A DNA stretch of 64,000 nt from assembly GCA_004214175.1 (NCBI GenBank), contig SGZH01000001.1:62001-126000 (forward strand). Direction: 5' to 3'. The stretch comes from Flavobacteriales bacterium (GTDB lineage: Bacteria > Bacteroidota > Bacteroidia > Flavobacteriales > Flavobacteriaceae). The position numbers and the translations under genes were made by a program. Shown piece by piece: positions 28,296 through 29,856 of this stretch. Below the pieces are notes generated by a model. It was not told the DNA's origin. It ran no database searches and saw only the letters and a program-made list of their open reading frames with translations. Each line of letters begins with the position of its first letter. The stretch's first letter is position 1.

Positions 28296-28616
28296 TTAAT
28301 ATATTTCAGAAACTGCTTTTTTATTTATAATTTCTTGCATTTCTTCATCACATAATGCAATATGGTAATCGCATTCAATAACCTGTTTTTCGCGAATTAA
28401 ATTAGTAAGTTCGCTACTAGCATTATCTAAATGAATTAATTCCTTTTTTAATTTTTTATAAGATTCAATAGATTCGTTTAAGTGATTTAATAGTTTAGAT
28501 GTGCTCCAATCTTTACGTTCCCTAAGTCTTAAATCTTCATCCATAAATTGTTTTACAGAAGCTATAATTTCATTTTGGGACATTAATTTGTTAAACTCTA
28601 TTGCTGATCTTTTCAT
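28296..28616 (-). CDS. Hypothetical protein, helical/coiled-coil
   Basis: Intact ORF with own promoter and terminator; start at MKRSAIEF because the ORF-track start overlaps a -7 box. Confidence 0.7.
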   Translation of the reverse strand: MKRSAIEFNKLMSQNEIIASVKQFMDEDLRLRERKDWSTSKLLNHLNESIESYKKLKKELIHLDNASSELTNLIREKQVIECDYHIALCDEEMQEIINKKAVSEIY

Positions 28617-28637
28617 TTCTATAAATCTATTAAAGCA

Positions 28638-28645
28638 CAAAAGTA
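28638..28645 (-). promoter_or_regulatory. Putative -7 box (TACTTTTG)
   Basis: TAnnTTTG 21 nt upstream of the ATG at 28616. Confidence 0.5.
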
Positions 28646-28924
28646 TATAAGTTTACTTAATAAAACAAGAAAAAACAAAATTAAATATAGCTGTAAAGCT
28701 GTTAACTAGTGTTTAAATGTAGTTTTTTATCGATAAATGTATTTTAAAACTATATCATTATTCAATAATTATGACGTTTATGTGAATATTTTTAAGACTT
28801 AGAAACTCTTTTATTGTGCTAATTGTACATCCATTTTATAAGTATCAACTATGTATCAATAGTTTATTTTTTTTTATTTATTATTGTAAAATAAATATTA
28901 ATTAAAAATTTAAATACTTAAATT

Positions 28925-29617
28925 ATGAATAAATTATTTAAAATATTGATAGCACTACTAGTTGTATTTTTAGCAACAGAAAAATTAAGTGCACAAAAGT
29001 TAAAAGTTTTCAATAGCTCAATAACTAAGAAAATTGGTCCTAAAAAAGTTGCGGTACCCTATACCGATGTTACCTCTTATATGGGCTATGCATCTCCTGG
29101 AACAGAAGATGAAATAAAAGACGGAAAAAAATTCTATTACATTTATCTTTGGATTCCTGTAGTAGTTCCAGAAATTGGGGTTAGAATGATCTCGCCAGCT
29201 GCTTCAATTAAAGCTAAAAATATCGTGCAATCCTCAGAATATACTGAGAATAGTGATTCTAAGGATTATTTTGATACTTACATAACTTTAGAAAGGTCCA
29301 ATATATTTACTAAACAAGAAATAAGTGAGGAAGGAGTCGCAAATGCTTCTTGGAATACATTAGCCCGAAACGATGATAGTAGTGAAATGCCAAAAAATCC
29401 AGGAGGAAGAAGTTATAATTCTTTATTGCGATATGAGAGTAATTTAAATGATCCACTGGGATCTCTTACAGTAGGGTTATATCGAATTGGTTTTACAACT
29501 TATAAAACAGGAGAGGTTAGTGGTACGTTTTTAGCACAGGTTGCATCTTCTGTAAAATTACCAGGTGTTGGAGTAGCAAAAACTATTAGTACCTTATTGG
29601 AGCAAATAAATGATTAG
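28925..29617 (+). CDS. LipL32-like secreted/surface protein
   Basis: Signal peptide; VPYTDVTSYMGYASPG, YYIYLWIPVVVPEIGVRMISP, YFDTYITLERSNIF, GLYRIGFTTYKTGEVSGTFLAQV match the Leptospira LipL32 fold signature as remembered. Confidence 0.8.
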   Translation: MNKLFKILIALLVVFLATEKLSAQKLKVFNSSITKKIGPKKVAVPYTDVTSYMGYASPGTEDEIKDGKKFYYIYLWIPVVVPEIGVRMISPAASIKAKNIVQSSEYTENSDSKDYFDTYITLERSNIFTKQEISEEGVANASWNTLARNDDSSEMPKNPGGRSYNSLLRYESNLNDPLGSLTVGLYRIGFTTYKTGEVSGTFLAQVASSVKLPGVGVAKTISTLLEQIND

Positions 29618-29856
29618 CTAGTCGTTATTGAAAAAATTAACCATATATACCAATATTTGAATGGGTGGTTTCTCTTTTATCAAAAGTCGTCTAGGAAGAT
29701 TATAAAATGCTTATAATATGGTTTTCTTGTGTTTGCTTCATTTAGCGTCATAGAGATTTTCTTGTTTACAAGTCAAATTTAAACTACTTTATATTGTTAT
29801 ACAACTTATATTTTATTTAGATTGAATAGACTTTAAAGGATATGGGATTTTAACGT

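Follow-up and report, generated by a model that had tools for sequence, protein, structure and literature searches.

The window, by which we mean the whole stretch of 64,000 nucleotides analyzed here, almost certainly encodes a true LipL32-family protein, and its sequence presents this protein as a genuine, intact, and non-lipidated member of the family with an apparently conserved calcium site. In pathogenic Leptospira, LipL32 is the most abundant protein of the outer membrane. The LipL32-like gene is a solitary open reading frame (ORF) of 230 codons starting with ATG (positions 28925 to 29617, forward strand), and the antisense strand in register with it is closed. The ORF, its coordinates, and all five peptides quoted in the first-pass annotation were recovered in the sequence, and the LipL32 segments given in this annotation agree with the PDB LipL32 sequence in our alignment.

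The proposed homology was borne out by the profile search, in which the LipL32 family PF12103 (Lipl32) matched far beyond chance (E = 3.7e-75; 251.9 bits, where the curated cut-off is 25), covering profile positions 1 to 178 of 179 and residues 40 to 216 of the protein (29042 to 29572, forward strand), a domain predicted to form a jelly roll. Three PDB sequences of Leptospira interrogans LipL32 (2zz8, 3frl, and 2wfk) also matched at E ~2e-25, with 41% identity over 176 aligned residues, and the order of the conserved blocks is common to both proteins. The score against the LipL32 equivalog model NF038394 was 103.1 bits, below its cut-off of 300, and the window protein is thus a homologue rather than a LipL32 equivalog.

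Structure prediction pointed to the same family. An AlphaFold2 model of the window protein, based on 41 window and locus sequences, had a pLDDT of 87 and a pTM of 0.82, and a Foldseek search of the PDB with this model returned LipL32 chains as its top eight matches (E <= 9e-15), the ninth match lying at 4e-3. The best match was 2wfk_C, "Calcium bound LipL32" (E = 5.1e-18, TM 0.70), with an rmsd of ~4 A taken over the whole precursor. Hence, the outcome that the first-pass annotation had named as speaking against its claim, a missing profile match together with a different fold, did not occur. It is extremely improbable that the resemblance is due to chance or that the protein belongs to some other jelly-roll family, for example the carbohydrate-binding modules or capsid-like folds: Foldseek does give weak jelly-roll matches, viral coat proteins and calpain C2-like domains among them, but the non-LipL32 jelly rolls reach E >= 4e-3 in the PDB versus 5e-18 for LipL32, and the family match at 3.7e-75 argues against chance, so that this candidate is refuted by the Pfam, PDB sequence, and Foldseek matches alike. 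A structural viral relative was also rejected, with weak, low-TM matches only.

The calcium cluster of LipL32 consists of Asp132, Thr133, Asp164, Asp165, and Tyr178 (PMC5566480), and all five positions are kept in the window protein. Once the FDTW aspartate was numbered 132, residues 164 and 165 came out as Asp and residue 178 as Tyr with no other shift, showing that the numbering is self-consistent. In the alignment, D117-T118 (29273 to 29278) correspond to the ligands D132-T133, D150-D151 (29372 to 29377) to D164-D165, and Y164 (29414 to 29416) to Y178, all on the forward strand. Moreover, these five positions and N149 do not vary across the 95 distinct relatives of full length. The calcium-binding loop had been described as apparently replaced, which the alignment does not bear out at the ligand positions; the run of aspartates is indeed shortened, DDDDDGDD in LipL32 versus ARNDDSSE within the shorter acidic loop NDDSSEMPKNPGG of the window protein, but the loop still holds the ligand pair D150/D151. 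Judging from its sequence, the window protein would bind calcium.

Residues 1 to 23 (MNKLFKILIALLVVFLATEKLSA; 28925 to 28993, forward strand) are predicted to form a signal peptide of the signal peptidase I type, leaving a mature protein of ~207 amino acids that begins with Gln24. As previously annotated, the signal ends in LSA|Q without a lipobox cysteine, and no cysteine was found within residues 1 to 40, whereas L. interrogans LipL32 has Cys20-type lipidation. This led to the earlier suggestion of a different anchoring mode, which holds in so far as the lipobox is missing here but is not peculiar to the window protein: a strict lipobox was found in 0 of 95 distinct relatives, sampled from Bacteroidota plus one Chlorobiota locus. 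As read from these signal sequences, the absence of lipidation is general in the sampled Bacteroidota/Chlorobiota branch. Gln24 is itself invariant among the 95 relatives, with a signal of the signal peptidase I type, and the Q-rule of Bacteroidetes, under which the N terminus left by signal peptidase I is typically a Gln that is converted to pyroglutamate (PMC5837995), would explain this invariance. Pfam and NCBIfam scans of the window protein found no C-terminal sorting domain of the type IX secretion system (T9SS). With neither this domain nor a lipid anchor, the periplasm is the default location, and the periplasm or the medium is the most parsimonious one. The status of LipL32 as a "surface" lipoprotein, taken as established in the first-pass annotation, is contested, since LipL32 has been re-assigned to the subsurface (PMC3544172), a report that sits well with a periplasmic reading of the window protein.

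The family is patchily distributed. PF12103 was present in 17 of 399 genomes of the bacterial family (14 of 237 genera), in 1 of 397 genomes sampled across the phylum, which was the window's own, and in 4 of 19 genomes of the genus, again counting the window's own. A genome-wide collection yielded 152 stretches encoding relatives, those kept being nearly all from Flavobacteriaceae, and many Aquimarina carry two lipL32 copies. No LipL32 homologue was found in the plasmid, phage, and viral collections, which thus give no evidence for a mobile element. Flavobacterial orthologues, of the same branch as the window protein, were already listed in 2014 in Cellulophaga algicola, C. lytica, Formosa agariphila, and Ulvibacter SCB49 (PMC4080168), and the flavobacterial placement is therefore not new. 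The description of an "environmental relative" is supported, and the window protein belongs to an already known, patchy marine branch of LipL32. The Ulvibacter SCB49 copy (L072) has, like the window protein, a signal peptidase I signal and no lipobox. Another marine member of the family, PtlL32 of Pseudoalteromonas tunicata, has calcium- and polypeptide-binding regions reported as conserved with LipL32; its published description calls it an orthologue of the lipoprotein, and it groups with Leptospira in the published tree (PMC4080168).

In 45 of 83 copies, lipL32 ends a same-strand gene cluster, with a gap before lipL32 of mostly 29 to 49 bases, a spacing that suggests co-transcription. Ahead of lipL32 lie genes for a small membrane protein with no Pfam family, in some loci a zinc-ribbon protein, and often a SIMPL/DUF541 protein (28 of 45), and a TPR histidine kinase with a LuxR-type regulator lies upstream in 25 of the 45. 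The cluster was found in nine named genera (e.g., L009:768-5678, L011:3961-9958, and L017:3460-10406, among ~45 loci in all). In many Aquimarina, lipL32 is followed by an unknown 254-amino-acid protein, an SPFH/SHOCT protein, a DUF6620 protein, and sometimes a second lipL32. Searches of the open-access literature found no paper pairing LipL32 with "SIMPL domain," nor one describing the lipL32-ending cluster seen in about half of the relatives. This two-component/small-membrane-protein/SIMPL context points to the cell envelope, so that a role there is no less likely than adhesion. The SCB49 copy sits in such a cluster, whereas the window copy lies outside it and in another subclade. In our tree, the window copy pairs with that of G018, a genome of the same genus (100/99); L008 and two Aquimarina copies join this pair next (97/91), and the window copy falls outside the group holding the cluster copies (88/90, not starred). 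As homologues of the SIMPL and small membrane proteins were not found in the window's genome, which is 70% complete, the operon inference may not transfer to the window copy.

The solitary window copy lies between a 114-amino-acid ORF and a tRNA-Arg/Pro/Ser cluster. This ORF (28296 to 28640, reverse strand) has no Pfam family and occupies the same place in G018 and in a second same-genus genome, G001, with 79 to 86% identity. At the syntenic site in G018, the interval bearing lipL32 (28769 to 29854), beside the 3' end of the tRNA-Arg gene, is missing: the site spans 157 bases there, without lipL32, versus ~1087 in the window. G001 likewise lacks the gene at this site. Both carry lipL32 elsewhere, in unrelated surroundings, and the similarity between copies begins 57 to 92 bases before the start codon and stops at the stop codon. 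These limits match one gene and its upstream stretch, and lipL32 thus appears, from the sequence comparison, to have moved as a single-gene unit. We found no paper describing this tRNA-Arg-side site, devoid of the gene in two same-genus genomes. Around lipL32, the search for direct or inverted repeats or an integration scar returned short, chance-like repeats only; no mobile-element genes were seen at 28769 to 29854, and a scan for sigma-70-type promoters gave no more than chance (9 found versus 8.0 expected). Within the same tRNA cluster, the tRNA-Pro to tRNA-Arg spacing is ~1.1 kb in G001 and G016 (L124:8200-9361 and L126:8832-9990) whereas the window and G018 have ~0.2 kb there, and this gap is another variable insertion spot. 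The G001 copy of lipL32 (L103:8136-8829, i.e., G001:C2:343135-343825), located near DUF285-repeat genes, is frameshifted and represents a pseudogene or an assembly error.

Such a copy, together with the presence of lipL32 in few genomes of the genus and at unrelated places, could be taken as the sign of an accessory gene that the organism can do without, one that moves about and drifts to loss in the genus and has no important role. We consider this quite unlikely: the window gene is full length with all ligands intact, the comparison with its G018 orthologue (dN 0.077, dS 0.978, dN/dS ~0.08) indicates that lipL32 is under constraint, and the G001 frameshift could come from the assembly. A released or loosely surface-bound adhesin to algal, animal, or particle matrix, comparable to PtlL32 in P. 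tunicata, is the main alternative, tenable though tentative. The carrier genera are mostly marine, several of them known as algal or invertebrate isolates, and, by the title of the 2010 report of Tung, the LipL32 calcium site is said to modulate fibronectin binding. P. tunicata provides a gammaproteobacterial homologue that demonstrably aids attachment and so favors this role, as the ptlL32 knock-out showed ten-fold less Matrigel binding and less Ulva colonization, complementation mending the Matrigel defect (PMC4080168). However, the window protein has neither a lipid anchor nor a T9SS domain, which leaves no known means here of keeping it at the surface, and the gene cluster of its relatives looks regulatory and envelope-like, not adhesin-like.

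We therefore favor, with about even confidence, an exported, Ca2+-binding jelly-roll protein that is soluble in the periplasm or the medium, for which the relatives' cluster suggests an envelope role. In this mechanism, Sec would export the protein, signal peptidase I would cleave its signal peptide, Gln24 would be cyclized to pyroglutamate, and the folded protein would bind one Ca2+ and, soluble in the periplasm or after its release, would bind a ligand of the envelope or the matrix.

For the branch as a whole, we propose a model that we still hold as doubtful, in which the Bacteroidota LipL32 would be a non-lipidated, Ca2+-binding periplasmic protein under two-component control, acting with SIMPL and the small membrane protein (and with SPFH in some Aquimarina) in envelope maintenance. 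If true, the LipL32 fold would serve the envelope generally, with lipid anchoring of the Leptospira type as one version of this role. For LipL32 itself, the primary function is still given as largely unknown (PMC3544172). With its non-lipidated proteins, invariant calcium site, and compact conserved cluster, this branch may offer tractable laboratory relatives for probing the basic role of the fold, and since the carriers are marine bacteria with no known human pathogens among them, that role could be examined without working on the pathogen. The gene cluster of the relatives is the part worth following, as it offers a test of the role of the LipL32 fold.
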